From a virus, in the IMG/VR virus record IMGVR_UViG_3300035145_003810, positions 1 to 36,862 of that record: a DNA stretch of 36,862 bases, one strand, 5' to 3'. The notes beneath the pieces are model-generated. The model ran no database searches, was not told the origin of the DNA, and was given only the letters and a program-made list of their open reading frames with translations. Below are positions 1 through 36,862 of this stretch, piece by piece (position 1 is the stretch's first letter; each line of letters opens with the position of its first letter). Made by a program: the position numbers and the translations under genes.

Positions 1-3000
1 GGAGATTTTACATCACAAGGTATTATGCTACGTGGTGCAAGTGCGGGATCTTATAGCATATTAACCGACAATAGTACTAATTGGAATACTGCTTACGGTT
101 GGGGCAATCACGCGTCGGCAGGTTACTTAACATCAGAAACATACACAGGTACAGTAACAAGTGTAGCACAAACAGTGCCAACTGGTTTTACAATTACAGG
201 CAGTCCTATAACTACATCTGGTACACTTGCCATTGCGTTTGACACTGGATATTCACTGCCAACAAATGCAAGCCAGAATAACTGGGACACGGCATATGGT
301 TGGGGAGACCATAGTGTAGCAGGATATACCTCCTATGCAAACTCTGACGTTGATGCCCACCTAAACCAAAGCAATCCAACAAGCGGATATGTTCTTTCTT
401 GGAACGGTACAGATTATGCTTGGGTAGCACAAAGCGGCGGTGGTGGTGGCCTTGCAGATGTTGTAGATGATACATCACCACAATTGGGCGGAGACCTTGA
501 CGTAAACGCAAAAGATTTTACTAGCAGCAGTGGTCAATTTGACTTTACTACAGCAACTTCTGCTACTACGCCGATAATTAATCTTATTCCACCTGCCTCT
601 CACTTTGATACACAAATTAGATTGCATACTAATAATAGTGGTACATATCAAGATATTATGAACGATGGCGGAGTTCTTAAAATTAGAACAAATGACGCCA
701 ATCCTATGGAATTTATTGTCAACGGTTCAACAAGAATAACACTCCCACAAGCTGGTGATGTAGATATAACTGGGAATCTTGACGTTAGCGATAACATCTA
801 TGTACAAGGTACTGCTTCAGATGGTGGTAAAATTATACTAAACTCCGCACAGTCAGGATCGCCAAGTAGTTCATCAACCAATTGGTCATATATTGAGGTA
901 GAAAGAGGTATTAACTCAAACGTTTCAATTCGTTGGCACGAAGGATTTGATCGTTGGGAATTCACTAACGACGGGGTTAACTATTACGCAATTCCAACTT
1001 CAGGTGGTAGTACCCCTACATTAGAACAGGTATTAACTTCAGGGGATGAATCTGACAACACTTTAACTTTATATAGAACTACTGATGGCAACAGTGCACA
1101 AGGATCTTTGATCTTTGAATCACGTGATACATCGCCGATACAAAATAACTCTATGGGTGATATTAGATTTTACATGGATAACGATTCAAATATCGCAACG
1201 AGCACACTTGGTGAATATGCACGTATATCCGCAAAAGCACAACAAGTAGCCTCTGGGTCCGCTGCAGACAACACTGGTTTTATAGAGTTCCGAACAAAAA
1301 CAAAAACCGGTGTAGATACATTAATGCAGGTTGGATTTGATCCGTGGTCGGCATCAGGCAGTTCGTCGGGTGGAAATATCGGTACAGTAATGCACGAGAG
1401 AGCATATGTCAACGGCAATTTCTACCTTTATCAACAAGTTGATACCTCTAACGATATTACATCCGATGCAGGTCTATATATGCATCTTACTGCATATGAT
1501 TCAGTATCAGGAACTATACAAAACCGTGGAGAGATTAATCACCAAAATGGCGTGTTTCGCATTATTCATAGAAACCGTAATAATACTGCACAATATGGTC
1601 AATTGACTATTCCACACTCTTCAAACACGCCATTAAGAATATATTACGCGGATGATAATTCAACGAACGATATTATTTCAGAGAAAAACTTTGATTCCAC
1701 GTTCAATAATAGAATGTTGGATGATGCTAATCTTGTAAGACTTAATCAATATGCAAATACAGAATACATTAGTACAAGGTCTGACTTTGGTGATTTTAAT
1801 GGCGGCAGCGCGGGACAAGCGTCCCTTGTGCCAGGTAACGGCGGGTTCGGTGCAGTTGCATTCTTTACTTGGGCTGATGCTAACAATGGCACTGCGTCTA
1901 AACACAGATATATTCCTGCAGGACACACAGAAGAAGCTGTACATGGTATGGGTATTCTTCGTGACTCCGGTCAACACGCTACTTCAACTCCAAGATGGGA
2001 TCCGTTCGGTGGACCGGACTTCCGTATCAGTTTGGATAGCAGCGCATCAGATGCGAACTACTTCTTTGGTTCAACAAGTACATCTAACACACCACACCCA
2101 ACCAACCTTATCATCACAAACTCAGACTATACTCCGCTTGATGGTGATGTCATTGGTCGTATTAAGTTTAAAGGTGGTGAAGATAGTTACACACAGTATG
2201 AAGAGTATGCACAGATCGCAGTGACAATGCAAGACACCGCTGCAGGTGCATATGATGCTAGAATGGCAGTGTATGTAAAAGGTAATGGTGGTACTGGTGA
2301 TAATGCAAACATTGGTTTGACACTAGATGGAAATGGTTCAATTATAAGAAGTAGAGCTAATCATCATTACTTTGGTGCGTTCCCAACCACTGCGGTTGAT
2401 AACGACACCGTTCCGACTGACAATTACATCAAAATTATTGCTGATAATGATGCCACACGTCAAGTAATTCAAAGTGCGGGTGATATGTGGTTCTCCGTTG
2501 ATACGGCGGTTTCTGCGAATACTGTTATGCAACTGAGTACTAGTGGAGTAAGAATTAATGGTGCGCTTGATGCTCAAAGTAATCAAATTAACAATCTAGC
2601 AGATCCAACTTTGGCCCAAGATGCGGCAACAAAAGCTTACGTAGATGCTAACGGTGGTGGCGGCGGCATTTCTAATATCGTTGAAGATACGACACCTCAA
2701 TTGGGTGGTAATTTAGATGCTAATGATAAAGTTATTAACGACCTTAGAGGTCTTAACATAGAATACAATACAAATGCAGGTGGGTCATACCCTTATATTA
2801 ATTTTAATCAAAATGATGGATCAAATGCATATCAAGGAAATCAAGATCTTGGCAGAATTAATTTTAGAGGTCTTGACGCTACTGACACATTTCTTGCAAC
2901 ATTAGCATCCATCAAAGCGGTTTATGAACAATATACTCCCGACCGAGATTCTCGAATGGAGTTTATGGTTACAAATGCAAATACTAATAGAACTGTTTTG

Positions 3001-4560
3001 ACTCTTAATAGTCTCGCATCTACTGGTGTTGAAGTAGAAGATGGAGAAAATCTTACTCTTACTGCGGCAACAGTTGGAGTTGAATTTCCTGATTCGTCAG
3101 GATCAAGATCTATAAGATTCAAAAAGACTGGTACTGTCCAAGGAATTGCATTAACAGCTCCAACTATATCAGCAGCACGAACTATTGAGCTTCCTGATGC
3201 TTCAGGAACAGTAGCTCTTACTAGTGATATTCCTGCATCAGGCATTGCTAATCTCGTTGAAGATACTACTCCACAGCTTGGTGGAGATTTAGATCTAAAT
3301 GGTTTTAAATTTACTCTTGGCACTAACGAAGATCTTGAAGTTTTCGCACCAAGCAGTAGCCGTTTTAATATTAAACTTGATTCTATCTATGGGTCAAATT
3401 ATGATCAAGATTTGTTTGTATATGATATGTCTGGCTACACTCAAGATCTTAATAACTTAGATCTTGGCGGTGTAAAAATAACTTATGATAATACTACAAA
3501 CGGGTCTGCTAACAGCGTATGTTTATCAGTTGAAGGAAGCGCTAGAGCTGGCTCTGGTCCTTATAACGGTATTTATTATTCAGATGACGCAGCTGTAAGA
3601 ATCGCTACAAACTCTGGTGGCAATTCAAGTAAAGGTAAAGCTAAAATTATTCTTTATAATAAAAGAAGTATATCCGTTGATGCCTATGATGATAAACACG
3701 CCGTTCATAGTGAAATTTCATTTGATGGGGATAAAATATCTGGGTCGGGATTTGTAAACTACGGCGCGATAAAAATGACTAGTGCTGAAGCTTCATCAAC
3801 ACACCCCGAAGGTCTTTTAGAAATTGGTGTTGCGTGCGGTGCAGGAGACGGCGGTCAGTTTTTTGATGGGCAAGGCGCTTTAAACGTTACTGGAGCAAAT
3901 GCAAACACTGGGTATCAACTCCTACGTATGGGAATGCAAAATAACAGTCAGCTTTGTATGGATTTAAACGCTAGCATTCTAATAAGATCCACACCAACAC
4001 GAGCTTCTTCTTCAGGATATAACAATATTGAATTTTATGATAATGGTGGAGGACAAGAAGATCAGGACGGTAACCTAGCCGGTACATATCCTGCAAGAGA
4101 CGGTACATCTCCTAATAGAGGAATACGTTGGTATGAAGGTGATAATATGGCTGGTTATGCTTATGCCGGAAACAACGACGCGACAGTATACGGCGCGTCA
4201 GGCGGAGCCGCTATCACTTACAACGCAACTACGGGAAATGTTCCACACGCAAATTTATTTGGAGGTGCCTCAGGCGGGGCGGCTTGGGTAAAAATCCAAG
4301 TATCACCAGAATTTGATACTGACTGGGCAGGACTAGGATATAATAGATGGGACACGCCTGTAGATATTCTTACAGTTTTTGCTGATAGAGTAGAAAGTGA
4401 AGTTGCGGTAACACTAGGTCACTATACTACAACAGAAAGAAACGCTTTATCAAGTGCCGGAAATATTACTGCAGGCACTATGATATGGAATACATCTAAT
4501 TCGCGAATTGAATTTTGGAATGGGTCATCCTGGCGATATGTGCAAGATTCAGCTGCTTAA
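1..4560 (+). CDS. Giant tail-fibre-like virion protein, 5' end missing
   Basis: The reading frame is open from base 1 to a TAA at 4558-4560, so at least 1519 residues are seen and the true start lies before the window. The protein is rich in Gly, Ser, Thr, Asn and Asp with no hydrophobic segment, as expected for beta-rich fibre shafts. It is modular: a NWNTAYGWGNHASAGY-type motif occurs twice (about 79-130 and 280-330), and a motif with core DTxPQLGGxLD occurs three times (about 450-510, 2665-2725, 3240-3300). The middle copy is preceded by LAQDAATKAYVDA, a motif common in phage fibres. The C-terminus (AGTMIWNTSNSRIEFWNGSSW) is a typical end for such proteins. No peptidase S74 domain is present, unlike the fibre at the other end of the window. 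Role: host recognition or long-fibre structure, by family resemblance; the exact fibre is unknown. Confidence 0.8.
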   Translation, partial: GDFTSQGIMLRGASAGSYSILTDNSTNWNTAYGWGNHASAGYLTSETYTGTVTSVAQTVPTGFTITGSPITTSGTLAIAFDTGYSLPTNASQNNWDTAYGWGDHSVAGYTSYANSDVDAHLNQSNPTSGYVLSWNGTDYAWVAQSGGGGGLADVVDDTSPQLGGDLDVNAKDFTSSSGQFDFTTATSATTPIINLIPPASHFDTQIRLHTNNSGTYQDIMNDGGVLKIRTNDANPMEFIVNGSTRITLPQAGDVDITGNLDVSDNIYVQGTASDGGKIILNSAQSGSPSSSSTNWSYIEVERGINSNVSIRWHEGFDRWEFTNDGVNYYAIPTSGGSTPTLEQVLTSGDESDNTLTLYRTTDGNSAQGSLIFESRDTSPIQNNSMGDIRFYMDNDSNIATSTLGEYARISAKAQQVASGSAADNTGFIEFRTKTKTGVDTLMQVGFDPWSASGSSSGGNIGTVMHERAYVNGNFYLYQQVDTSNDITSDAGLYMHLTAYDSVSGTIQNRGEINHQNGVFRIIHRNRNNTAQYGQLTIPHSSNTPLRIYYADDNSTNDIISEKNFDSTFNNRMLDDANLVRLNQYANTEYISTRSDFGDFNGGSAGQASLVPGNGGFGAVAFFTWADANNGTASKHRYIPAGHTEEAVHGMGILRDSGQHATSTPRWDPFGGPDFRISLDSSASDANYFFGSTSTSNTPHPTNLIITNSDYTPLDGDVIGRIKFKGGEDSYTQYEEYAQIAVTMQDTAAGAYDARMAVYVKGNGGTGDNANIGLTLDGNGSIIRSRANHHYFGAFPTTAVDNDTVPTDNYIKIIADNDATRQVIQSAGDMWFSVDTAVSANTVMQLSTSGVRINGALDAQSNQINNLADPTLAQDAATKAYVDANGGGGGISNIVEDTTPQLGGNLDANDKVINDLRGLNIEYNTNAGGSYPYINFNQNDGSNAYQGNQDLGRINFRGLDATDTFLATLASIKAVYEQYTPDRDSRMEFMVTNANTNRTVLTLNSLASTGVEVEDGENLTLTAATVGVEFPDSSGSRSIRFKKTGTVQGIALTAPTISAARTIELPDASGTVALTSDIPASGIANLVEDTTPQLGGDLDLNGFKFTLGTNEDLEVFAPSSSRFNIKLDSIYGSNYDQDLFVYDMSGYTQDLNNLDLGGVKITYDNTTNGSANSVCLSVEGSARAGSGPYNGIYYSDDAAVRIATNSGGNSSKGKAKIILYNKRSISVDAYDDKHAVHSEISFDGDKISGSGFVNYGAIKMTSAEASSTHPEGLLEIGVACGAGDGGQFFDGQGALNVTGANANTGYQLLRMGMQNNSQLCMDLNASILIRSTPTRASSSGYNNIEFYDNGGGQEDQDGNLAGTYPARDGTSPNRGIRWYEGDNMAGYAYAGNNDATVYGASGGAAITYNATTGNVPHANLFGGASGGAAWVKIQVSPEFDTDWAGLGYNRWDTPVDILTVFADRVESEVAVTLGHYTTTERNALSSAGNITAGTMIWNTSNSRIEFWNGSSWRYVQDSAA

Positions 4561-11491: not shown

Positions 11492-11499
11492 TATTTATA
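11492..11499 (-). promoter_or_regulatory. T4-type late promoter for the capsid gene
   Basis: A perfect TATAAATA on the minus strand, 38 bases before the capsid start, in the 3' end region just downstream of the scaffold stop. Recognised in T4 by gp55. Confidence 0.88.
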
Positions 11500-24423: not shown

Positions 24424-24431
24424 TATTTATA
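24424..24431 (-). promoter_or_regulatory. T4-type late promoter after the accessory cassette
   Basis: A perfect TATAAATA on the minus strand, 38 bases before the start at 24385. It overlaps the stop of the nucleotidyltransferase-cupin gene (24427), so cassette and structural genes are joined very tightly. Confidence 0.8.
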
Positions 24432-25206
24432 TTGAGTCCCGTCTCTCAATATCGTCCTCAGATAATACGTTACCCATCCAAACTTCAATTACTTTAACTG
24501 GCCTGCTTCCTACATTTGTAGCTTTATGCCAAGTCTTTTGTGGAATATCAATACTATCCCCTGACCTATATACATTTGAAGTTTTGTATCCATTTGAAAA
24601 TTCTAAATTCATTTCAAGTTCGCCATCAACAATATGCCAATGTTCCGTACGAACAAAATGTCTTTGATCCGACAATGATTTACCTACATCAATTGAAAGC
24701 TCTTTAACTTTCCAATGACCGTTATTATCAAGGTTTCTATATTTACCCCACAATCGCTGAGTTTCAGGTTTGTCCCAGTTCTCAAGTAACCAAGAAGAGC
24801 TGTTCTTTTTATTATTACCGCCAACACCAAACATAAACACGATTTGGCCTTCTTCAATTAATTCTTTTGCATACTCAACTTCAGGTGTTGTACCTTTTTG
24901 ACGATCGCCGCCATTAGCAAAAATGATTTGGCTTGAAGGATATTCTGACCTTACTTTTCTAATTGCACCAACCGCAGTATCATCGCTATCGTCAAATTCA
25001 AACACTTCGTCAACAACTTTAAGTGCTTCTAATATTGCAATACGTTCTTCAATTGGCATAAACGGTCTTCCTTTTTTGCGTGTCAACCATTCATCACTGT
25101 TTGCACCAACCAAAAGTTTGTCGCCAAGTTTTTTCGCAGCTTTAAAATATTCAATATGACCTGAGTGAATTGGATCAAATCCGCCAGTAACTATAACTAT
25201 TCTCAA
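24427..25206 (-). CDS. Nucleotidyltransferase-cupin (PMI-like) fusion protein
   Basis: A 259-residue protein with two domains. The N-terminal half (about 1-145) is an HxGH cytidylyl/adenylyltransferase like HldE-C or TagD: GGFDPIHSGH (His14, His17), GRPFMPIEERIAILEALKVV, FANGGDRQKGTTPE, and NSSSWLLEN at the position of the final ISxTxx motif. The C-terminal half (about 160-259) is a cupin of the mannose-6-phosphate isomerase/ManC type II kind: EHWHIVDGELEMN, SIDIPQKTWHKATNVG and VIEVWMGNVLSEDDIERRDS. Together these would activate and isomerise a sugar phosphate. Start is TTG 25206, in a TTGA overlap with the AcpS stop, with GGAG in front. It is the last gene of the cassette. Substrate unknown. 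Confidence 0.83.
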   Translation of the reverse strand: MRIVIVTGGFDPIHSGHIEYFKAAKKLGDKLLVGANSDEWLTRKKGRPFMPIEERIAILEALKVVDEVFEFDDSDDTAVGAIRKVRSEYPSSQIIFANGGDRQKGTTPEVEYAKELIEEGQIVFMFGVGGNNKKNSSSWLLENWDKPETQRLWGKYRNLDNNGHWKVKELSIDVGKSLSDQRHFVRTEHWHIVDGELEMNLEFSNGYKTSNVYRSGDSIDIPQKTWHKATNVGSRPVKVIEVWMGNVLSEDDIERRDSI

Positions 25207-25553
25207 AACCTATTCTCCACTATAACAATTGCTGTAACACAATTATTTTCTTCAGTTAACGAAATATGTATATCAAAGAATTCTAATTCGTTGTTTTGTA
25301 ATTCTATATATGGCTTTTTACCATTTGACACATAAGTGATTTGATTAAAAGGTATCTTCCATCTATGACTTGTTGCTTTATATAAAGCTTCCTTGGTAGC
25401 CCAACACCTTGCTGCAAACGCCGCTCGTTTCCAAGACGATAAAGTTTCTAATTTTTCTATTTCTTTTATAGAAAATATATGGCCTGGGTTGTTTTTGTGT
25501 TTTTCAAAGTGTCTTGATATTTCTGTTGTGTCAATACCTAAACCTTCAATCAT
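25203..25553 (-). CDS. acpS: AcpS-type holo-ACP synthase (phosphopantetheinyl transferase)
   Basis: A 116-residue protein matching bacterial AcpS (about 120-130). It opens GLGIDTTEISR, with metal-binding Asp8, and has the second signature FAARCWATKEALYKA with Glu55 and Lys59; the IHISLTEENNCVTAIVIVE end matches the usual final strand. AcpS moves 4'-phosphopantetheine from CoA to a serine of an acyl carrier protein. All key residues look intact. It starts at ATG 25553 with an ATGA overlap on the preceding methyltransferase and ends in a TTGA overlap with the next gene. No carrier protein is visible in this window, so its target could be the host ACP or a phage protein elsewhere. I know of no common AcpS in T4-like phages. 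Confidence 0.87.
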   Translation of the reverse strand: MIEGLGIDTTEISRHFEKHKNNPGHIFSIKEIEKLETLSSWKRAAFAARCWATKEALYKATSHRWKIPFNQITYVSNGKKPYIELQNNELEFFDIHISLTEENNCVTAIVIVENRF

Positions 25554-26797
25554 AATTTTTCAACCTCAAAGAAATAATTCCATGCAAAATTATGATTAGG
25601 ATTAACTTGTTTATTACGCAAACGACCGGCAAGTGATGGATGTACCCACCAATCCTCATAAGCTGCCTCTTCGTCAAACCCTACATTAGGTACTGCGAGG
25701 TGATATCCCATTGAGCTTAAACCTTCTCGTGATGCCTGCCTTACTTTGTCTCCATCAGGATGCCATGCCGCATTGTGTTGAAATTGAATAACTCCAAATT
25801 CATAACCCTGAAACGGAATTTGCTCAAGTGTTTTAAAACACCACTCTTCTGTTGATATTCTTAAAAAGTCAATATATCGTTCAATACAATGTTGATTGAG
25901 TAATGTGTGATAGTCAAGATCTGTTGCATCTCCAAATATAATTGTACTTTTTCTTTGTCTTGAAAACTTTGTAGCAAATCGTTCATTTCGTTCAATTGAT
26001 AGTCCTGACCAATCGTAATCCTTTTCAAGTAAATAAGTTGCACTCATTTCAATAGGATCACCACAACCAATGTCAAGAAATGTACCTCGTTTCTTTCCTT
26101 CAGTAATCATAAGTACAAATAGATCTTGAAAGTGACGAGCGTAGTTCTTTTCAATTTCTTGAACACCAGTAAAAGTATATTTTAAACTATCTACATCTTG
26201 TTTTGTATATGGTATTCGGTGTGGATACTTCGTATTCTTTAACCAACCTGTAATCGAATCTTCGTGGTGTTTATCAAGTTTTAATTTGTGTTTTACATTA
26301 AACATCAATAGTTTTGATGAATCAAGTCCGTCGTCTTTCCATTTTGAAATAGCATATTGGAATTTTAATAAGTTCATTCCTGTCCATTTTGGAAGGTTGT
26401 GGTTTTTTACAGGTTCTATATCAGTACAGCCTAAACCTATTTGAGAATACATTAGGCTATCTCGCCAATTGTTTTGTTTCTCGGCAAATGTGGCCATGTA
26501 ATAATATGCTTCAGGTCTATTAGGCAAAAGATTAATAGCAGCTTTAAGTAATGATCCGACAGTATGACCTCGTCTTCCTTCTTTCATAAACAAAATTGAT
26601 CCAAGAATTAGACATTCATATTGTAACCATTTTTCTTCAAAACTATCACCTTCTGTAAAATCAGCAGCACGTAAATAATAACTAAATGCAGCGGCTCGCT
26701 GATCTAACTTATCATATTCCATCGCAACTTTAAACATAATCTTTGGGTCTGCAGGATTTAACGCATAAGCATTTATAAGTTTAGTAATTAATTGCAT
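25550..26797 (-). CDS. TPR protein with FkbM-type methyltransferase domain
   Basis: A 415-residue two-part protein. The N-terminal part (about 1-135) has TPR-like helix pairs (LNPADPKIMFKVAMEYDKL, AAAFSYYLRAADF, LPNRPEAYYYMATFAEKQN). The C-terminal part (about 230-400) is FkbM-like: FLDIGCGDPIEMSATYLLEK for SAM binding, LSIERN, IIFGDATDLDYH, then YIDFLRISTEEWCFKTLEQI, the family's (I/L)D-x-(L/I)-x-I-x-x-E element. FkbM enzymes mostly O-methylate sugars. It starts at ATG 26797, sharing a base with the propeller gene stop (TAATG). Phage genes of this type are common in marine phages next to glycan genes. Acceptor unknown. Confidence 0.82.
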   Translation of the reverse strand: MQLITKLINAYALNPADPKIMFKVAMEYDKLDQRAAAFSYYLRAADFTEGDSFEEKWLQYECLILGSILFMKEGRRGHTVGSLLKAAINLLPNRPEAYYYMATFAEKQNNWRDSLMYSQIGLGCTDIEPVKNHNLPKWTGMNLLKFQYAISKWKDDGLDSSKLLMFNVKHKLKLDKHHEDSITGWLKNTKYPHRIPYTKQDVDSLKYTFTGVQEIEKNYARHFQDLFVLMITEGKKRGTFLDIGCGDPIEMSATYLLEKDYDWSGLSIERNERFATKFSRQRKSTIIFGDATDLDYHTLLNQHCIERYIDFLRISTEEWCFKTLEQIPFQGYEFGVIQFQHNAAWHPDGDKVRQASREGLSSMGYHLAVPNVGFDEEAAYEDWWVHPSLAGRLRNKQVNPNHNFAWNYFFEVEKL

Positions 26798-27840
26798 TAT
26801 GGGCTCCCATTCAAAAATTGCATAAAGACTTCTAAATTCATTCTCAAAATATAAGAAGCATTGTCTTGAAAACCAAAAGTAATAAGTATTTCTTCACCAA
26901 CAATTGTTGCACCTGTTACAAATTCAATGTTAAAGTCTTGTTGTTTTGCATGATCGTAATACGTACCTAAGAAATGAAATTCCGATGATGTTTGAATAAT
27001 ATTCCAATCGTTATCCCATATAATAACACGGTGTGCATAGTTACCGTCTTTACGACCAAACGGATCTCTTAATAGATTTGTTTCGTGGCAGAAAGCCATT
27101 CTTCTATTATCATCAAGCCTTATAACTTGTGAGCCACCTCTAAGATCTTTGCCAAAAGGATAAACTTTGGTTTCGTCAATAAACGCGTCAGTGCATTCGC
27201 CAGTTTCAATATCAAATTTTACAACTTGTGTTGGGTTTGTCCACTTAACAAAATGCCATGGCATATCAAGAACTGGCATCCAATTCTTTTCACAATAACT
27301 TGCATCTCCATTTGGTGCTGGGATTTGGTATCTATTTTGTTCAACCCATTCGCCGTCTATAAATTCAACTTCAGAAAGGTCCATACGACCTTTTCCTTTA
27401 TCATCATAGCAATCTCTACGAACTCCACAAAGATATAATTTATCATCCCATTCAAATAATCTTGCATCTTCAAGGCCAACAAAATTCCAAGTAGGTTTGC
27501 CTGTATCGAGTTTCATATTTACTCGACCACCTGAAACCATATTAAGATTCCAATCGTATTCACAAATTACGTTGTGTGTTTTTAAAGCTACATCGTTTTC
27601 AGGATGTACATACACCAAAGGACCCCACGCGTGTGGAAACTTTTTAGCCTCTGAATGATAAAGGATATAATTAACGTGGCGTACGTTTACTAATATTTTA
27701 TCTTTGTGTATAAAAATAGAAGGGTTCATTAAACCCGTAGATTCATTTCCTAATATCTGTAAAGGAATAACTATTGGCGTTAAAGAACCACCACGTTTAA
27801 GAGCATAGGTCGCAAGACCACCCATATGCAAGTCGTGCAT
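26797..27840 (-). CDS. GH130-like five-bladed propeller glycan protein
   Basis: A 347-residue protein resembling the five-bladed propeller glycoside phosphorylase/hydrolase group (GH130-like). Segments include MNPSIFIHKDKILVNVRHVNY, the signature VGLEDARLFEWDDKLYLCG, EKNWMPVLDMPWHFVKWTNP, DLRGGSQVIRLDD and FVTGATIVGEEILITFGFQD, at roughly even spacing as expected for blades. GH130 enzymes act on beta-mannosides; the catalytic acid cannot be fixed by eye, so it might be a binding protein. It starts at ATG 27840 with GGAG and is first of the four coupled genes. I see no TATAAATA directly in front; late transcription from 28638-28645 through the small paralogs is likely. Confidence 0.75.
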   Translation of the reverse strand: MHDLHMGGLATYALKRGGSLTPIVIPLQILGNESTGLMNPSIFIHKDKILVNVRHVNYILYHSEAKKFPHAWGPLVYVHPENDVALKTHNVICEYDWNLNMVSGGRVNMKLDTGKPTWNFVGLEDARLFEWDDKLYLCGVRRDCYDDKGKGRMDLSEVEFIDGEWVEQNRYQIPAPNGDASYCEKNWMPVLDMPWHFVKWTNPTQVVKFDIETGECTDAFIDETKVYPFGKDLRGGSQVIRLDDNRRMAFCHETNLLRDPFGRKDGNYAHRVIIWDNDWNIIQTSSEFHFLGTYYDHAKQQDFNIEFVTGATIVGEEILITFGFQDNASYILRMNLEVFMQFLNGSP

Positions 27841-27870: not shown

Positions 27871-28200
27871 CTACCAAGTAGGGTCCCGCGTTACCATTGT
27901 CATTTTGTTGATCTTGTTTTGTAAAGCGGTATTAATTCTTTCTTCGTGTTCTGCGTCAATAGCGCCTTGAACCCAACCTAAAACAATTTCTTCAGTAAGA
28001 TCATTAAGAGCAACAAAATCAGCAGCAGCGGTTTGTTCGGCTGTGAGTGTTGTTTTGCCTAAGTACTTTGCAACATTCCCACTTAGGTCTGTTGCAACTT
28101 TTCTCCAACTTACAAAAATCACGGCATCTTCAAGGGTATCCCCGTCACCATTGACTTGGCTTTTAGTTCCAAGTTTTAAGATTTCCCAATCGTATACCAT
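27871..28200 (-). CDS. Small virion-type protein, paralog A
   Basis: A 109-residue protein related to the gene just before it (28208-28600): both read [YTF]-x-W-[EK]-[IV]-x-x-L-K-x-x-x-Q-V-N, then G-x-T-L-x-x-A-V, a W, and a middle LGWVQ/LGWIQ helix. It opens MVYDWEILKLGTKSQVNGDG. Proteins with this pattern recur in T4-like marine phages next to fibre genes; role unknown. It ends with TRDPTW. It starts 7 bases after its paralog, so both are expressed together. Confidence 0.75.
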   Translation of the reverse strand: MVYDWEILKLGTKSQVNGDGDTLEDAVIFVSWRKVATDLSGNVAKYLGKTTLTAEQTAAADFVALNDLTEEIVLGWVQGAIDAEHEERINTALQNKINKMTMVTRDPTW

Positions 28201-28207
28201 TTATTTT

Positions 28208-28600
28208 TTACTCCTCGGACGGCAAAGCTGGAGTTGCGGAAGTACCATCGCCCCACGGCAATCCTGACTCATCAATTTCAGATTCATTTTCTATGTCGAT
28301 TTTCTTTTGAATTTCTCCATCAATATGTTTCTTATAAGATGCGTCATTATTGACTACGTTTTGAATCCACCCAAGAACATCGGCCTCAACAAGATCAGCG
28401 AAAGCTTTAAAAGATCCTTCAGGAACGTTTTCTGCTGAGAACGGCGTAGCTCCTGAAAACATACCGCTATCCCCGTCTTCGTTTGTACCTGTAACTTCCC
28501 AAAAAGTTTGAACGACCGCATTTGGCAAAGTAGCACCTTCGCTATTAACCTGGTCTCGAACTTTAAGGCTTGTTACTTTCCATTCATAAGTAAATGCCAT
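28208..28600 (-). CDS. Small virion-type protein, paralog B
   Basis: A 130-residue protein, paralog of 27871-28200 (shared start YEWKVTSLKVRDQVNSEGA then TLPNAVVQTFWEV; shared ADVLGWIQNVV). It adds an acidic, Pro/Ser/Gly-rich tail (about 108-130, GLPWGDGTSATPALPSEE) absent from paralog A. It lies 36 bases downstream of the giant fibre gene. It may be a virion protein or fibre accessory, by context. A late promoter variant (28638-28645) lies 37 bases before its start. Confidence 0.77.
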   Translation of the reverse strand: MAFTYEWKVTSLKVRDQVNSEGATLPNAVVQTFWEVTGTNEDGDSGMFSGATPFSAENVPEGSFKAFADLVEADVLGWIQNVVNNDASYKKHIDGEIQKKIDIENESEIDESGLPWGDGTSATPALPSEE

Positions 28601-28636: not shown

Positions 28637-31600
28637 TTATTTATCCATTAATTTATATACCAATTCTTGCAGTTTGTCAATCTGCTTTTGCTGTTCATCT
28701 AACTGATTTTGTTGTTTATTTATTGTTTCTTGCTGCTCTTTGATACCTTCAATAAGCAAGCCTACCATATTACCATAACGAACAGCTTTACGATCTTTTT
28801 GTGTTTTAAGATCTGTTGTTTCGTATACGGCTTCAGGTAAAACTTTTTCAACTTGTTGTGCAATTACACCAGTCTGATTACCTTCTTTATCAATATAGTT
28901 AAAAGTAATACCATCAAGGGTTTGGATTTTCTCAATAGCATCTTTAATAACTTCTATGTTTTCTTTCCAACGAATATCAGAATAGTTTGCAAAACCTGTA
29001 ACTTCGCCTTCTGTTTGAATTGTACCGTAAGCCTGAATTGCATTCATAACTGAAGTGCCGGCTGGGTTTTGATAATAAGTGGTATCGTTTGAGTCATAGA
29101 ATAATGGCGCACGTACTGAAGAACCGTCAAACAGTCCGTAATCACCACTTACGATTCTCATTCTCCAGGTTCCGCCGTTATTCAAAATACCAACGTTGTT
29201 ACTACTATCTGCGTAGAAGTAACCTCTAACGGTCCCGGCGTATTCATCACGCATACGAATCCAGTTTGCCGCGGTTCCGCCTGCTACGTTCCAACCGTCA
29301 TCATCATCAGAATAGAAGTGCTGTCCTGATGCTTGGTTATAAATACCTTCACCTGAGTTATCGTTACGGAACCAGTTACGAGCATAGAATTCGTTAGCAC
29401 GAACACTAGTACCGAAATTAGATCCGCCTGCAGGATCCAAATAATAAGTTGTATCGTTTTGGTCATAGAAAATTGGTGCACGGAACGATCCACGGGCTTC
29501 AAAATAACCAGATCTTGTACGACCTTCCCAAGTACCGTTATAATACAAATAAGTAATATAATCTTCATCGGCATAAAGAATTGCTTCGCCGTTATCATGG
29601 TACAATGACATAATAGATCCATCATCGTCCCAATAAATTCGCCCACAATATGTATTAGAATCACGGAATCTAACCTCGCCGTGGTCAGAGTTATTTGAAC
29701 GAATACTTAACGTGTCAGCGTCGTCATCGTAAATATCCCAACCATCATTAAATTGAAGGAAGTTAAGATCAATTTGGTTCATACGAGAAGTTGATGCCGG
29801 ATCGGTATAATATGCCGAGTCGTTTGAGTCATAATAACGGCCTGCATATAATGAGCCACCGCTAGTGCTGTTCACATCAAGCATTGGAACGGTTCTCCAT
29901 GCACTGAATGAACTACCCCAAGTATTTCTAAATCTTAAGTTACCAATAGGACCACCACACATTTGCCAACCATAACGGTTAGAACCGTTAGTATAGTGAT
30001 ATGCTTGAACACCAACCCAGTGAGATGTACCTGAAGGTTGGTTTGCTGGGTTTGACCATGTATCAAAGAATCCTGAGCCCCAGTTACCAACAGTGTTCAG
30101 ATCAATAGTACCCCAGCCTACTGCGCCTGTCCAATAGTCTGAGTTAGAAGTAATTCGTGGTCTTGCAGCATAATATTCCTTACTGCTTCTTGTGTGTCCT
30201 GGAAGCTGCATATAAGCCATGGTTTCCGGTTGGACGCCACGGAATCTCGTATCATTGGTGCTAGCGCCATTGAAGCGGTAAGCTGTATTATTTGTGTCAT
30301 AGAAGATTTGCCCACGAACCGAACTACCATCAAACAGTCCGTAATCACCGCCTACAATACGCATTCTCCAAGAACCGCCAGAGTTTAAGATACCAACATT
30401 GTTTCCGTTATCTGCATAAACGTAACCACGAACTGTTCCACCGTATTCATCACGGAAACGAATACCGTTTGCAGCAGAACCACCAGCAACGTTCCAATAA
30501 TCATCGTTATCAGAATACCAATGTTGACCTGTTCCTTGGTTGTAAAGTCCTTCGCCAGACTGGTCGTTACGGAACCAATCACGAGCATAGATGTTAGTAG
30601 CACGCAAACCAGTGTTAAAGTTAGAGAAACTTGCCGGATCTACGTAATAACCAGTGTTGTTTGTATCGTAGAAAATTGGTGCACGGAACGATGATGACGC
30701 ATATGAGTTACCATCTGCCATTGCTTGGAAGTACCAACCTGAGATACCACCAGTAGCAGCACCGTGTTGACCTACATAGAAACCTGTTGTATTTGAATCA
30801 TTATTGTTATTTGAGTCAAGGTTAATGAACACATCATGATAAGAGTTAATACGAATATCATCAGATATACCACCGCCGTTGTCACGAGACGTAAAGCCGT
30901 GATAATCAGAATCGTTACCATACATTGTAATAAAGTCACCACGATCGCGCATATTAAGCCTGTCAAGTGTGACTGTAACCATGCTTGAGGTACCGTTAGG
31001 ATTTGTATAATAACCTGTATCATTTGAGTCATAGAAGATTGGAGCTCTTAAAGATGCGCCAGCTTGCAAGTTATTATTAACATAAACGTTGCTGCCACCT
31101 AATGGGTCTGAACCATTGTTGATAGACATAACCTGTGTAGCCATGTCATAATCGGTATAGAAACGCATACCTTGGTAACCGGAGTTTGCACCAAACTTAA
31201 GACCAGTGTGGAATGCAATCCTTAGATCTGGATACGGGTTAGACCATGCGCCTGACTCACGGAAAATTGCGTAAGCAGTAGATTTTGTTGGGTGGAAATA
31301 AACACCGCGTCCGTCGTCGGTTGCAACCGAGTCATCAAATTGGATATAATCATCAACGACAAGTGTATTAATAAGTGAAGAACCTGCAGGATTTACATAG
31401 AAATTAGTATCGTTACGGTCGTACATAATTGGAGTATCAAGACGTGAGTTAATTAGTGTTTGACCATTACCTCTAATAATCATGTTCCAATCACCACCAA
31501 CACCACCGTCACGGAACGAAATATCTTCACCGCTTGATGTTGCAATAATTAAGTGTGCATCATTGGTATCTGTAACTTGTATGAACCCGCGTTGGTTTTG

Positions 31601-34600
31601 TGTTGTTGCTGCCTGCAAAGTAATAATAGATCCGCTTTGCATAAACAAGCCATTGTCTATTTGAACCTGCGACATTTTTGATGTGCCGTTAAAGTTACCA
31701 TAGTAGGCAGTATTATCAGCATCATAATAAATGCTCGCATAAAAGTTTTCTTGAACGTTTACGCCGTATACCGCAATTGAGCTAAATGCTGAATAAGCTG
31801 TTGTAGATCCAAAAGTTTGTTGCCATAGGCGCATACCACGCCCACTTTTATTGAACATAAGTAAGTTATCGTTACCACCTGAAGCATCTGTGTAAGATCT
31901 TAGGTGTAAATAATCTGCGTATGGTGATGTGTTATTATTGTTCCAAGATGTGAAGCCAAATTTTAATTCACCGGCAGTATCTTCTGATGGAGATATAGTT
32001 CTATTATCACGAGATTTTAACGCATCGGAATATCCGTTAACGCCAGGTGTGGTAATTGCATTATCAACAGTAAGATTTAATAGTCTCGCGTCTACATTTG
32101 GATCAACAAAATACGCACTATTGTTTCTGTCTGTAATACTATTTACATAAGCAATTCCGTCAACAGTTATACCATCAGATTTTGTTTCAAGCTTCATTGT
32201 ACCATTGTGCATAAGCTCAACTTCAGCGTTTTGTCTAAAGATTGCAGCCCATTCATTGTTTGTATCATTATAGATACCAGACACGGCAGCACCTGATGAC
32301 ATGAATACCCAATCATCATTGATTGCATATCCTGCATAACCATTTGTATTACCTTGAACTCTTATAGATCCGTAGTCGCCTGACACAGTGTCAATATAAT
32401 AAGTTGTACCAACTAACTGATAACGACCTGCTCTTACTGTTTCAAAAATAGATAGCCCGTTTGGATCTACGTAATAAGCGGCATCATCAGCGTCAATAAA
32501 TTGTGTTGCCGTGACAGTACTACCAAAAGTACCTGTAGTGCCAACATCAAGTGCGGCACCGATTGTCATATTACCGCTACTATCCGTAAATGTACTTGAT
32601 GTAGCAAAATACAAAACACCTGGATCGTTTGCATGATCCATTTCAAACATCGTCTGGCCACCTGCAACCATATGCACATGATCGTTTCTATATCTTAAAT
32701 AAGTATTCGTATCTCCGTTGTGATACAAATATTCATTAATATAAACGTTGTTTAAAATTGTATTTGAAGCCGGGTCAACATAATAATTGGTATCGTTAGC
32801 ATCAATAAATCTTTGTGCTGTAACATATCTTCCAACATCCAAGTCACCATTTGAACCCATTGTTGCACGGATAACTTGTGTTGCCCCAATCCCAGTTGTA
32901 AATTGAAGATTACCACCTGAGTTGGTTGTTATATCATCTGGTGATTCAAAGATACGCCACGCGCTACCACCTTTCCAATACAAACCTTCATTTGGACCAG
33001 GATCGTTAAATGTAATGTTGTTAACGTCATTAATATCGCCGTTTGTAAAGTTCCAAGTACCTGCAAGTTTACCGCCTGTAGCAGGATCCATATAATAAGT
33101 AGTATTATCTTTATCGTAAATTTTCTTGATATATAATTCGTTACCTGTAATATCGCCAGTCGCAACGATAGGACCATCAACATCAAGATCTTGAGTTTGA
33201 AGATTTGATAATACGTTGGTTCTTTTGAGTAAAGGTGGGCCGTAAGCACGTAAAGCACCGCCCGTAGAATAGTTCATCAATAGTACAAGACGAATATAAC
33301 GTACACCTAAACCATCTGAACCGTTAAATGGTGTGTGGCTTGTTGGGATTGTAGTGTGGCCTGAATATACTGTCCAACTTGTGCTTGTAACGTTTGTTCC
33401 GTTTACAACAAAATACTGAATACCATCGTTAGTTGCAATTGGGTTTTTGTCTTTATCATATCTACGAATACCCATATAGACAACGCCGCCAGATCCTGAG
33501 ATATATTTTACAGCAATTTCACCGTAGATTTCTTCTCCTGGCTCAACTGGGATATAGTCTGAGTCAAATGTTCTGTACCCATTTGTTTGTAAATGCCAAC
33601 CTGCCGCAAATGGTCCGTCGCCATTTTCTACATATTCGTTTGTATCTGAAGTTGCTCCATTTTCAGCACCTTGCATTGGTTGAATAACTCGCTTATCCCA
33701 ATATTCTGATGCGTCAAATAACAATTGGTCTGCAAGACCTGCGCCGTATGTTTTAAGCAAGCCGACATCTTCATTACCACCATTAAGGGCAAGGCTGCCA
33801 AAAATACCTGCACCGTATGCTTGAATATCCCCGGCTTCGTTAAACCAAAATCTTTCTCCGATACCGTTAAATTCAAATGATACAGCAGATAATGAGTTAC
33901 GAGTAATGTGTTTAAACCAAGGATAATTTGGATCGGCTCCGCTGTTACGGAAACCAATCATATATTCTGTATTATGATGCAAAGTAAACGGATAAGTAGT
34001 ACCTGCCTGTAACGCAGACTGATTACCAATATTTAATGCCTTTAACCTTGACTGATCGTCACCGTGAATATAGAAAGAGTTATCATTAACGTCCATAAAG
34101 ATAGGAGACTCAATTTTATTCGTCGCAACAACTTTACCATTTCCGGTTTCAAATTCTTTAGTGCCATCGTAATAAAGTTCAACAGTCCCATTACGATCGC
34201 CGTATATAGCCCATTCATTATCTTGATCGTTAAAGATACCCCAATTTGTTGTATTAGCAACAAAACCCCAATCAGTATTAATAACATAGCCTGCCATTCC
34301 GCCTGTATCGCCTTCAACACGGATTGAGCCATAGTTGCCGGCCGCGGAGTCAATAAAGGTTGCGGTTGAGTCAATCTCAAGTTTCTTAACTTGTACGATA
34401 TTAAGATTTGAATTACTACTAGGATCTAAATACCAAGAGGTGTTATCTTTATCATAATAGATAGGAGAACGGATTGAAGTTTCATGAGAAATAAAGCTTG
34501 CATTTAAATCTGTGTGGAATGCGCCATCTGTATAGAATTTAAATTTATCATCGGAGTTGAACCACATTGCTCCACTCTCAACACCAATTGTATAATCATT

Positions 34601-36862
34601 ACCATTGGCGACAGTTGGGAACAAGTTAATTCTTGCAGATGTTACTGCATCTGTTGCGGTAGGCGCACCTACGTTCAAATTATCAAAGTCAAGTTTACGG
34701 AACTTTGAAGTTCCTGCAAAATCACCGTAATAATCGGTATCCGCCCAATCATAATAGATATTAAAGAATGCGTTATCATTGGCATCATAAGCATATATTC
34801 CGCCATTAAATTCAGTTCTTTTATTAAAATAAAACTTTGCTCTGTCAGTTATAAATTGAGAATAGTCAGTTGTTTTTGAACCGATCTCAAGAGTACCTGT
34901 TGGTGTTGCAAAAACGTGAGAGTTTGATGAATTTGGATTCCAATAATAATTTTGATTTGCTTGATCGTATACAGCTGGTGCACGAACATTTTGAGTAAAC
35001 TCAGCATAAGTATTCTCGAGGTGTAACTTAATCCCACCGTTAAGTTCAACATCAAACTGATCGTTTGCTGGGAAACCAAACTTTGAATCTGTATCACCAT
35101 TATGAGAAACATAATCGTCAAGACTAATGGATGCCATAATTGAAGTGCCGTTTGGATCAACTTCATAATTTGAATCATCACCGTCAATGAATTTAGAACC
35201 AGTGAGTGTTCCTGTAGTAATGATATTTTTATTGTTGCGAACTTTCATGTCGTTCGCATTATCCATATACCAACCACCACCTTGACCAAAGCCAAGTTCA
35301 TTGTTTTTAAAGAATGATGCAGTACTACGTCCTACTACATAAGCATCGTCATTACTGTTTAATTGAACTGATCCGTTTACGTGTAACTTACTATCAGTAT
35401 TAGAGCCGATAATCGGTGTCATATCACCTTGTGTATAAGCGGGTGATTGATCTCCAACAACTGTGACAGCCGTATTTGCATTTACAGAAAATGCAATGTT
35501 TGCGCTCTGATCTCCAATATTCCAAGACCCATCTTGTTGCATAATAATATATGCATCACCTGCGTTTGATCCTGACAAGTAGTAAATATCAGACCCATCA
35601 ATTTGAGCATTAATAAATCTATTACTTGCTGAATATGGATTAGCACCAGCATCAATGCGGTTCAAAGTGAAAAGAGGTTTTCCTCCGTTATTGCCTGCCA
35701 CTTGTATTGACGGGTTTCCTGTTCCGCCACCCCAAGTATAAGGTTGAAGAGTAACGCCGCCTGTACCTGATGTCAATCCATCAAGATCACCATCAACGCC
35801 ATTCCTAATTACACCTGCGACAGCCAAAGCAGTATTTGCACCGGTTTCTCCAAGGCTTAAGAACCTTGTAGTTCCAGCATCAGGATAATAAGTTGAGGCT
35901 CTTATAGGAAGGAACGATTGGTTAACAGAGGTTGATCCTGTTGTACCAAATATAAATCTGTTCACACCGCCAGTAGCAAGAGCAAGTACGTCAGCGGAAG
36001 ATCTGTACATACCTGTTGTTGTACCGTCTTTAAACGAAAATCCTGGGAATGATGAAGTACCATCGTCACCTAATACTTGCCCGCCTAATACTGCGGATAC
36101 GCCAGAAGATCCAAACGGATCAACATAATAAGAAGTATTTGCCGAGTCAACAAAACGTGGAGCAACAGAATCAACTGAAGCTGTTACCGCTCCATCGGTT
36201 ACTGTTAATCTTGCCGCGCCACCGGTTTCAACTACGAAAGTATCATTTGCTGAAAAACCAAATCTTGTATCAGTATCACCATTATGAGTAATATAATCAT
36301 CAAGCAAAACGGTTGCAGTAAATTGAACACCGTTATTAGAAACATTAAAACGAGAAACTCCGCCTGTTACGAAGTGTATTTCGTCTTCTGCCGGGAAGTT
36401 AATATAAGTATCAGTATCGCCTCTGTGAACAAGGGAACCTTCAAGCAGAATTGTATTTAGTTCTGAATTACCAGCAGGATCTAAGAAATAGTTTATATCA
36501 TTTGAGTCATAATATGCAGGAGCTTTAATTATTACACCTGAAACGTTTTCCGTTAAACCAACATTCCAACTTTCTATATTGTTGATGTATGTTCTAACAG
36601 TGTTAGATGAAAATGTAATATATTCAGTATTAGCAGTACCAGTTCCACCGATTGAACCTGCCAAGCGAATGTTGTTCATTTCAGATATGCCAGCAAAGTC
36701 ACCATAATAAGAATTATTGTCGGCATCAATAAAGACTTTAGCAACAGTATTAGCTGATACGATCCAATTATTGTTTGCGTCTAATTTTGCACCGTATGCA
36801 AGTGTTTGGTCAAGAAAACCAATTTCGCCGTTATTTGAATAGAGTGTACCATTATTACCAAC
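28637..36862 (-). CDS. Giant tail fibre with S74 intramolecular chaperone, 5' end missing
   Basis: The frame is open without a stop to the right edge, so at least 2741 residues; the first ATG inside the window (36679) is not the true start because codons from 36680 to 36862 continue the same repeat pattern (FIDADNNSYYGDFAGISEM). About 20 copies of a 22-residue unit with core D-x-N-[DN]-T-x-Y-Y-x-D-P-x-G-x-S occur, 60-200 residues apart, plus a HNGDT module about four times. The last 114 residues are peptidase S74: SDIRWKENIEVI starts with the self-cleaving Ser (codon 28979-28981) and the Lys of the dyad, followed by GVIAQQVEKVLPEAVYE and a coiled coil at the end. It releases a trimer-folding chaperone. 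Role: adsorption fibre. No internal stops or frameshifts. Confidence 0.9.
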   Translation of the reverse strand, partial: VGNNGTLYSNNGEIGFLDQTLAYGAKLDANNNWIVSANTVAKVFIDADNNSYYGDFAGISEMNNIRLAGSIGGTGTANTEYITFSSNTVRTYINNIESWNVGLTENVSGVIIKAPAYYDSNDINYFLDPAGNSELNTILLEGSLVHRGDTDTYINFPAEDEIHFVTGGVSRFNVSNNGVQFTATVLLDDYITHNGDTDTRFGFSANDTFVVETGGAARLTVTDGAVTASVDSVAPRFVDSANTSYYVDPFGSSGVSAVLGGQVLGDDGTSSFPGFSFKDGTTTGMYRSSADVLALATGGVNRFIFGTTGSTSVNQSFLPIRASTYYPDAGTTRFLSLGETGANTALAVAGVIRNGVDGDLDGLTSGTGGVTLQPYTWGGGTGNPSIQVAGNNGGKPLFTLNRIDAGANPYSASNRFINAQIDGSDIYYLSGSNAGDAYIIMQQDGSWNIGDQSANIAFSVNANTAVTVVGDQSPAYTQGDMTPIIGSNTDSKLHVNGSVQLNSNDDAYVVGRSTASFFKNNELGFGQGGGWYMDNANDMKVRNNKNIITTGTLTGSKFIDGDDSNYEVDPNGTSIMASISLDDYVSHNGDTDSKFGFPANDQFDVELNGGIKLHLENTYAEFTQNVRAPAVYDQANQNYYWNPNSSNSHVFATPTGTLEIGSKTTDYSQFITDRAKFYFNKRTEFNGGIYAYDANDNAFFNIYYDWADTDYYGDFAGTSKFRKLDFDNLNVGAPTATDAVTSARINLFPTVANGNDYTIGVESGAMWFNSDDKFKFYTDGAFHTDLNASFISHETSIRSPIYYDKDNTSWYLDPSSNSNLNIVQVKKLEIDSTATFIDSAAGNYGSIRVEGDTGGMAGYVINTDWGFVANTTNWGIFNDQDNEWAIYGDRNGTVELYYDGTKEFETGNGKVVATNKIESPIFMDVNDNSFYIHGDDQSRLKALNIGNQSALQAGTTYPFTLHHNTEYMIGFRNSGADPNYPWFKHITRNSLSAVSFEFNGIGERFWFNEAGDIQAYGAGIFGSLALNGGNEDVGLLKTYGAGLADQLLFDASEYWDKRVIQPMQGAENGATSDTNEYVENGDGPFAAGWHLQTNGYRTFDSDYIPVEPGEEIYGEIAVKYISGSGGVVYMGIRRYDKDKNPIATNDGIQYFVVNGTNVTSTSWTVYSGHTTIPTSHTPFNGSDGLGVRYIRLVLLMNYSTGGALRAYGPPLLKRTNVLSNLQTQDLDVDGPIVATGDITGNELYIKKIYDKDNTTYYMDPATGGKLAGTWNFTNGDINDVNNITFNDPGPNEGLYWKGGSAWRIFESPDDITTNSGGNLQFTTGIGATQVIRATMGSNGDLDVGRYVTAQRFIDANDTNYYVDPASNTILNNVYINEYLYHNGDTNTYLRYRNDHVHMVAGGQTMFEMDHANDPGVLYFATSSTFTDSSGNMTIGAALDVGTTGTFGSTVTATQFIDADDAAYYVDPNGLSIFETVRAGRYQLVGTTYYIDTVSGDYGSIRVQGNTNGYAGYAINDDWVFMSSGAAVSGIYNDTNNEWAAIFRQNAEVELMHNGTMKLETKSDGITVDGIAYVNSITDRNNSAYFVDPNVDARLLNLTVDNAITTPGVNGYSDALKSRDNRTISPSEDTAGELKFGFTSWNNNNTSPYADYLHLRSYTDASGGNDNLLMFNKSGRGMRLWQQTFGSTTAYSAFSSIAVYGVNVQENFYASIYYDADNTAYYGNFNGTSKMSQVQIDNGLFMQSGSIITLQAATTQNQRGFIQVTDTNDAHLIIATSSGEDISFRDGGVGGDWNMIIRGNGQTLINSRLDTPIMYDRNDTNFYVNPAGSSLINTLVVDDYIQFDDSVATDDGRGVYFHPTKSTAYAIFRESGAWSNPYPDLRIAFHTGLKFGANSGYQGMRFYTDYDMATQVMSINNGSDPLGGSNVYVNNNLQAGASLRAPIFYDSNDTGYYTNPNGTSSMVTVTLDRLNMRDRGDFITMYGNDSDYHGFTSRDNGGGISDDIRINSYHDVFINLDSNNNNDSNTTGFYVGQHGAATGGISGWYFQAMADGNSYASSSFRAPIFYDTNNTGYYVDPASFSNFNTGLRATNIYARDWFRNDQSGEGLYNQGTGQHWYSDNDDYWNVAGGSAANGIRFRDEYGGTVRGYVYADNGNNVGILNSGGSWRMRIVGGDYGLFDGSSVRGQIFYDTNNTAYRFNGASTNDTRFRGVQPETMAYMQLPGHTRSSKEYYAARPRITSNSDYWTGAVGWGTIDLNTVGNWGSGFFDTWSNPANQPSGTSHWVGVQAYHYTNGSNRYGWQMCGGPIGNLRFRNTWGSSFSAWRTVPMLDVNSTSGGSLYAGRYYDSNDSAYYTDPASTSRMNQIDLNFLQFNDGWDIYDDDADTLSIRSNNSDHGEVRFRDSNTYCGRIYWDDDGSIMSLYHDNGEAILYADEDYITYLYYNGTWEGRTRSGYFEARGSFRAPIFYDQNDTTYYLDPAGGSNFGTSVRANEFYARNWFRNDNSGEGIYNQASGQHFYSDDDDGWNVAGGTAANWIRMRDEYAGTVRGYFYADSSNNVGILNNGGTWRMRIVSGDYGLFDGSSVRAPLFYDSNDTTYYQNPAGTSVMNAIQAYGTIQTEGEVTGFANYSDIRWKENIEVIKDAIEKIQTLDGITFNYIDKEGNQTGVIAQQVEKVLPEAVYETTDLKTQKDRKAVRYGNMVGLLIEGIKEQQETINKQQNQLDEQQKQIDKLQELVYKLMDK
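28638..28645 (-). promoter_or_regulatory. Late promoter variant at the fibre stop
   Basis: GATAAATA on the minus strand, one mismatch from TATAAATA, inside the last codons and stop of the giant fibre gene and 37 bases before paralog B. May drive 28600 down to 24427. Confidence 0.5.
29081..29490 (-). repeat. Segmental duplication in the fibre, C-terminal copy
   Basis: About 136 residues beginning at FRAPIFYDQND and ending at DYGLFDGSSVRAP, similar to the block at about 30281-30690. Boundaries are approximate. The shared middle includes YNQ-x-x-GQH-x-YSD-x-DD. Confidence 0.85.
30281..30690 (-). repeat. Segmental duplication in the fibre, N-terminal copy
   Basis: The second copy of the block at about 29081-29490, about 1.2 kb apart. 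It begins FRAPIFYDTNN and ends DYGLFDGSSVRGQ. Boundaries are approximate. Confidence 0.85.
32180..32410 (-). repeat. Fibre module repeat (GSIRV-NEWA), copy 2
   Basis: About 75 residues with DYGSIRVQGNTNGYAGYAIN, IYNDTNNEWAAIF and VELMHNGTMKLETK, related to the block at about 34130-34375. More diverged than the 29/30-kb duplication. Confidence 0.7.
34130..34375 (-). repeat. Fibre module repeat (GSIRV-NEWA), copy 1
   Basis: About 80 residues with NYGSIRVEGDTGGMAGYVIN, IFNDQDNEWAIYGDRNG and VELYYDGTKEFETG; related to about 32180-32410. Confidence 0.7.

Follow-up and report, generated by a model that had tools for sequence, protein, structure and literature searches.

What is made by a group of tightly packed, apparently sugar-related genes lying among the virion genes of a phage? 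The question is raised by the viral record IMGVR_UViG_3300035145_003810 (IMG/VR; 36,862 nucleotides), which was analysed over its whole 36.9 kb and is called the window below. The record is part of a genome only, so much of the phage genome lies outside it. On its minus strand, at positions 24427-27840, an initial annotation recognized four translationally coupled genes, encoding a GH130-like propeller, a TPR-FkbM methyltransferase, an AcpS-type 4'-phosphopantetheinyl transferase, and a nucleotidyltransferase fused to a cupin (NT-cupin). All four open reading frames (ORFs) are present, and the overlaps can be read in the sequence: TAATG at 26797, ATGA at 25550-25553, and TTGA at 25203-25206. 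Domain and PHROG searches of the window identify T4-like myovirus surroundings (major head protein, scaffold, portal, sheath, terminase, and neck proteins), and head protein and terminase place the phage nearest, among isolates, to Sinorhizobium phages of the phiM12 group and to cyanophages. With moderate confidence, the genes are interpreted here as a cassette with which marine T4-like phages synthesize and O-methylate a glycan late in infection; we infer the individual roles, the substrate, and the acceptor. Gene order, late promoters, glycosyltransferase fusions, and conserved active-site residues support the late, coupled, sugar-modifying character already proposed in the annotation.

The limits of the unit emerge from its relatives. 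The propeller retrieved at least 600 rows in viral contigs, and gene orders were counted in the best 80 distinct contigs. The TPR-methyltransferase gene directly follows the propeller in 76 of the 79 contigs with room for it, the NT-cupin gene then follows in 64/72, and DUF7936 genes lie upstream of the propeller in 67/75. At the place where the window carries AcpS, the methyltransferase and NT-cupin genes of the relatives abut or overlap. The conserved unit is DUF7936a-DUF7936b-propeller-TPR/methyltransferase-NT/cupin, flanked by T4-type late promoters. Adjacency in the same order, set beforehand as the test of the four-gene proposal, was thus found for the propeller, methyltransferase, and NT-cupin, together with two DUF7936 genes, and was not found for AcpS. 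The four-gene set as a conserved unit is ruled out by this gene order and by the absence of AcpS from the relatives found.

Two small DUF7936 proteins, overlooked in the annotation, are encoded in the window on the minus strand at 28208-28600 (DUF7936a, the first gene of the unit; PF25590, 4.9e-12) and 27871-28200 (DUF7936b; PF25590, 6.4e-13), DUF7936a likewise preceding the propeller in relatives. These tandem genes (27871-28600) may provide acceptors or assembly partners of the cassette. Promoter placement in the window and in relatives indicates that the unit starts at DUF7936a and ends at the NT-cupin, so that the natural transcription unit would be DUF7936a-DUF7936b-propeller-methyltransferase-(AcpS)-NT-cupin, wider than 24427-27840.

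The promoter annotated over the last stop of the cassette is present: the late promoter TATAAATA (24424-24431, minus strand) overlaps the terminal TAA, marks the end of the unit, and lies 39 nucleotides (nt) upstream of the next gene. The window contains six minus-strand TATAAATA sites, five of them 24-50 nt upstream of late-gene ORF starts. The sixth (11492-11499) lies within the longest major-capsid ORF, close to its start, and precedes the beginning of the PHROG match by about 50 nt. In relatives, TATAAATA precedes the same post-unit gene in 29/29 cases and, as an exact copy, DUF7936a in 45/63; it is found upstream of the propeller in 12/77, and upstream of the methyltransferase (0/78) and NT-cupin (0/65) in none. 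A TATAAATA site occurs in 2.5% of random stretches; this background, set against the 29/29 and the spacing to late-gene starts, argues that the sites are not due to chance. Upstream of the window's own DUF7936a are a candidate late promoter, GATAAATA (28638-28645, minus strand, 38 nt upstream), one mismatch away from TATAAATA, and an alternative candidate, TATAAATT (28650-28657, minus strand). From this arrangement we infer late transcription of the unit.

The propeller (26797-27840, minus strand, 347 residues) is assigned by fold rather than by sequence. Its AlphaFold2 model (pLDDT 81) is a five-bladed β-propeller, for which the best PDB matches in Foldseek are the GH130 structure 5b0p (2.6e-10), then the GT108 structure 6q4y (9.6e-7). 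The two families share this fold (PMC8950772). The GH130-like label of the initial annotation is therefore borne out by the predicted structure and not by sequence: a sequence-profile search of the PDB returned no match, and only the fold search worked. A candidate active site, N39, E124-D125, and D326, is invariant in 85 distinct homologs. It matches, by motif and order and not by superposition, the mannose-site residues Asn28, Glu91-Asp92, and Asp281 of the GH130 enzyme Teth514_1788 (PMC4264767). The fold is shared with GH130 mannoside phosphorylates and Leishmania GT108 mannosyltransferases, and the invariant Asn, Glu-Asp, and Asp are candidates for a similar active site, but the phage protein is only 10-14% identical to them and lies outside the GH130 Pfam model; it is filed as GH130/GT108-like only. 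Fold and invariant residues together suggest an enzyme rather than a lectin, and the glycan-recognition part in which the propeller had been cast, a non-enzymatic one, is judged unlikely. The same predicted fold occurs in propellers of the giant viruses Pithovirus, Solivirus, and Satyrvirus (BFVD), several of them annotated as fucosyltransferase-, WcaK-, or LicD-type; these belong, however, to eukaryotic viruses, are mostly larger, and have low sequence identity to the phage protein.

The next gene (25550-26797, minus strand, 415 residues) encodes TPRs, recognized by TPR matches, and a putative FkbM-type methyltransferase, with a model pLDDT of 91. The TPR half resembles the TPRs of O-GlcNAc-transferase. 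The methyltransferase half is identified through homologs, PF05050 being weak in 6 of 21 close homologs and above cut-off in three longer ones (L078, L081, and L083). In one relative (L076:1884-4280), a single protein unites the propeller, a GT17 glycosyltransferase, and a methyltransferase, and in others FkbM or TPR parts are fused with GT2, GT7C, or GT17. These fusions to glycosyltransferases support a glycan pathway, as do the glycosyltransferase-type annotations of the giant-virus propellers.

The window's own methyltransferase is an outlier. A viral scan with this sequence alone yielded no relatives, a first hint of its divergence, and the relatives found by an alignment-based scan are none of them above 48% identity. 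Around the S-adenosylmethionine motif (residues 241-280), relatives of comparable propeller identity are mutually 72±5% identical, versus 45% to the window. The C-terminal half is 47±1% identical to the window, versus 58±4% among relatives, and in the tree the window's end branch measures 1.0 versus a median of 0.25. In the other trees, the window's NT-cupin groups tightly with those of contigs L041, L043, and L047, and its propeller groups elsewhere. Judged by these trees, the cassette is a mosaic, and a distant variant has probably taken the place of its methyltransferase gene or arisen from it.

The NT-cupin (24427-25206, minus strand, 259 residues, TTG start) consists of a nucleotidyltransferase with an HxGH motif and a mannose-6-phosphate-isomerase-type cupin. 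Both domains exceed their cut-offs (PF01467, 60.6 bits; PF01050, 78.3 bits), so that this identity in the annotation holds, as does that of AcpS, likewise above its Pfam cut-off. The HxGH residues (H14, G16, and H17) are present in 113/113 homologs, and the Ser motif that follows in nearly all. Scores fall below the equivalog cut-offs of TIGR02199 (HldE/RfaE domain II; 76 vs 181.5 bits) and TIGR01518 (TagD; 48.9 vs 165.4 bits), and the substrate is therefore not assignable from sequence.

Taken as a pathway, the NT-cupin would make a nucleoside-diphosphate-activated sugar or alditol, and the propeller would transfer, or reversibly phosphorolyse, a mannose-like residue. The FkbM-type domain would add O-methyl groups to the glycan while the TPR arm held a protein acceptor, most likely a virion protein synthesized concurrently, either a tail fibre or DUF7936. 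Decoration of virion proteins is favoured by the presumed expression of the unit late in infection, next to genes for tail fibre and neck, and by the protein-binding TPR arm. Several points weigh against this interpretation. The Foldseek TM-scores of the propeller are moderate (0.5-0.6). The GH130 Pfam model PF04041 does not match the window's propeller and reaches one of 17 homologs only below cut-off (E 0.0036). The window's methyltransferase domain has no Pfam match, the FkbM label being borne out only by homologs. The window's unit contains no conventional glycosyltransferase. Finally, late placement fits decoration of the virion and modification of the host surface alike.

Modification of the host surface is the main rival, a possible explanation although a clearly less probable one. 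LPS (lipopolysaccharide) or capsule would be altered, blocking superinfection or the re-adsorption of progeny to debris. This is the published reading of the sugar clusters of cyanophages and jumbo phages (P-SSM2 type; PMC7824862), which in T4-like marine phages share with the present unit HIGH-superfamily nucleotidyltransferases, a cupin sugar enzyme, and O-methyltransferases. Many T4-like viral contigs (L105-L163) also carry NT-cupin homologs in sugar islands with GT2, GT25, and FkbM genes, between RecA/UvsX-like and UvsW-like genes. The cyanophage LPS clusters, however, centre on glycosyltransferases accompanied by epimerases and sugar kinases (PMC7824862), none of which was found in the window's unit and tested neighbours; membrane and export genes are likewise missing from the unit. 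It differs from these clusters further by the GH130/GT108-fold propeller, the TPR-fused methyltransferase, the late promoters, and the site in a structural region. Expression from late promoters amid virion genes would come late for a lytic phage to exclude superinfecting ones, and TPR arms suggest protein acceptors.

The initial annotation had considered that the four enzymes, AcpS included, build or attach an acyl-sugar. AcpS (25203-25553, minus strand, 116 residues) is a member of its family: PF01648 matches over the full length (1.8e-11; 44.5 vs a cut-off of 25 bits), TIGR00556 is just exceeded (46.6 vs 45.35 bits), and the catalytic D8, E55, and K59 (Mg-binding Asp/Glu plus Lys) are kept. 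It shares these features with bacterial holo-acyl-carrier-protein synthase, but scores below the equivalog of that primary enzyme (TIGR00516, acpS; 36 vs 59.8 bits), lies in a late operon, and has no carrier protein beside it in the window. Coupling by 4-nt overlaps would favour a joint pathway, as would the divergence of the adjoining methyltransferase in exactly this phage, as if both had changed together. Against it, AcpS is absent from every one of the relatives retrieved. PF01648 was absent from 50 related records (the control was positive in 10 of 14 genomes), and no homolog was detected by similarity in the fetched related viral loci. Pattern scans, which are not exhaustive, retrieved none in viral contigs, with patterns from the protein or the alignment, and none in plasmids. 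Phage records gave only two short Listeria fragments (29%), of which the one opened is flagged UNVERIFIED, and bacterial genomes, in a pattern scan, only a Lactobacillaceae-type AcpS (35% over 60 residues). No carrier protein (PF00550) was detected in the window or in 44 related records. These results speak against the four families forming one system, and the acyl-sugar pathway is considered unlikely.

Unrelated small ORFs sit at operon junctions in relatives too, a 77-residue one between propeller and methyltransferase (L004:8039-8272) and an 81-residue one between methyltransferase and NT-cupin (L015:9278-9523), both without family match. The junctions hence look like insertion spots. Given its absence from relatives, AcpS is best seen as one of several such insertions, outside the core unit. 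In this phage it would have entered at the methyltransferase/NT-cupin junction, possibly along with a replaced methyltransferase gene, and it may add a phosphopantetheine-dependent step. An assembly chimera is judged an unlikely source of AcpS, both junctions being clean 4-nt overlaps, seen in a single contig only. At its furthest reach, the interpretation would involve a widespread viral system that places an O-methylated mannoside-type glycan on tail or virion proteins late in infection, via a propeller transferase outside known families, with AcpS and the changed methyltransferase acquired together here, giving a pantetheine- or acyl-dependent virion modification not known from any virus; this combination is a long shot.

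Direct methylation of proteins by the TPR-methyltransferase, making the cassette a protein-methylation system, would agree with the protein-binding TPR arms and with the methylated virion proteins of a marine phage-host system (PMC13288928), but is improbable, the propeller and NT-cupin being sugar enzymes by fold and family and the homologs being fused to glycosyltransferases. Hypermodification of DNA with glycosylated bases is barely credible: T4-like phages do glycosylate their own DNA, but DNA-modifying genes are expressed early, whereas this unit has late promoters and a virion-gene setting, and the cassette has no base-modifying partner.

The cassette is flanked by the gene of a giant tail fibre on one side and by neck genes on the other. 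The giant fibre (28637-36679, minus strand, 2680 residues) ends in a Peptidase_S74 intramolecular chaperone and carries at least 10 copies of an FYDsNdTxYYxdP-like motif along its length. A plus-strand protein of 1511 residues (25-4560) has only a short tail-fibre PHROG match and no Pfam match. In a second lineage (L055 and L062), inspection of the genes between the NT-cupin and the neck genes revealed nothing informative; the variable region after the NT-cupin encodes in L055 (7962-9680) a 572-residue protein whose match to Hint/Vint is weak (E 0.0014) and does not reach the cut-off.

Among isolates, Synechococcus phages S-SCSM2R and DSL-LC02 possess an adjacent propeller/TPR-FkbM pair (45% / 32% and 44% identity), which adjoins a baseplate-annotated gene in the former and lies among tail-fibre genes in the latter. 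They differ in having no adjoining NT-cupin, no AcpS, and no DUF7936, and in DSL-LC02 the TPR-FkbM protein (L083:6968-9121) is fused to radical-SAM/SPASM domains. Phage sugar clusters are already known; new here are the unusual propeller, the TPR-fused methyltransferase, the fused NT-cupin, and the late structural setting. In the literature searched, a part of the whole, no description of the block was found, and none of FkbM in cyanophages, of GH130 in viral metagenomes, or of phosphopantetheinyl transferases in the metabolic context of phages.

The block is a conserved and common feature of marine T4-like phages, judging from the at least 600 rows retrieved by the propeller alone, and one apparently undescribed in that literature. 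It offers named genes and, in S-SCSM2R and DSL-LC02, two sequenced isolates. With the AcpS insertion, an enzyme that activates carrier proteins is encoded in the late operon of a phage, which is rare. If virions are decorated, these phages would modify their own receptor-binding parts via a dedicated late pathway, which would bear on host range as well as on virion proteomics that takes peptides as unmodified.

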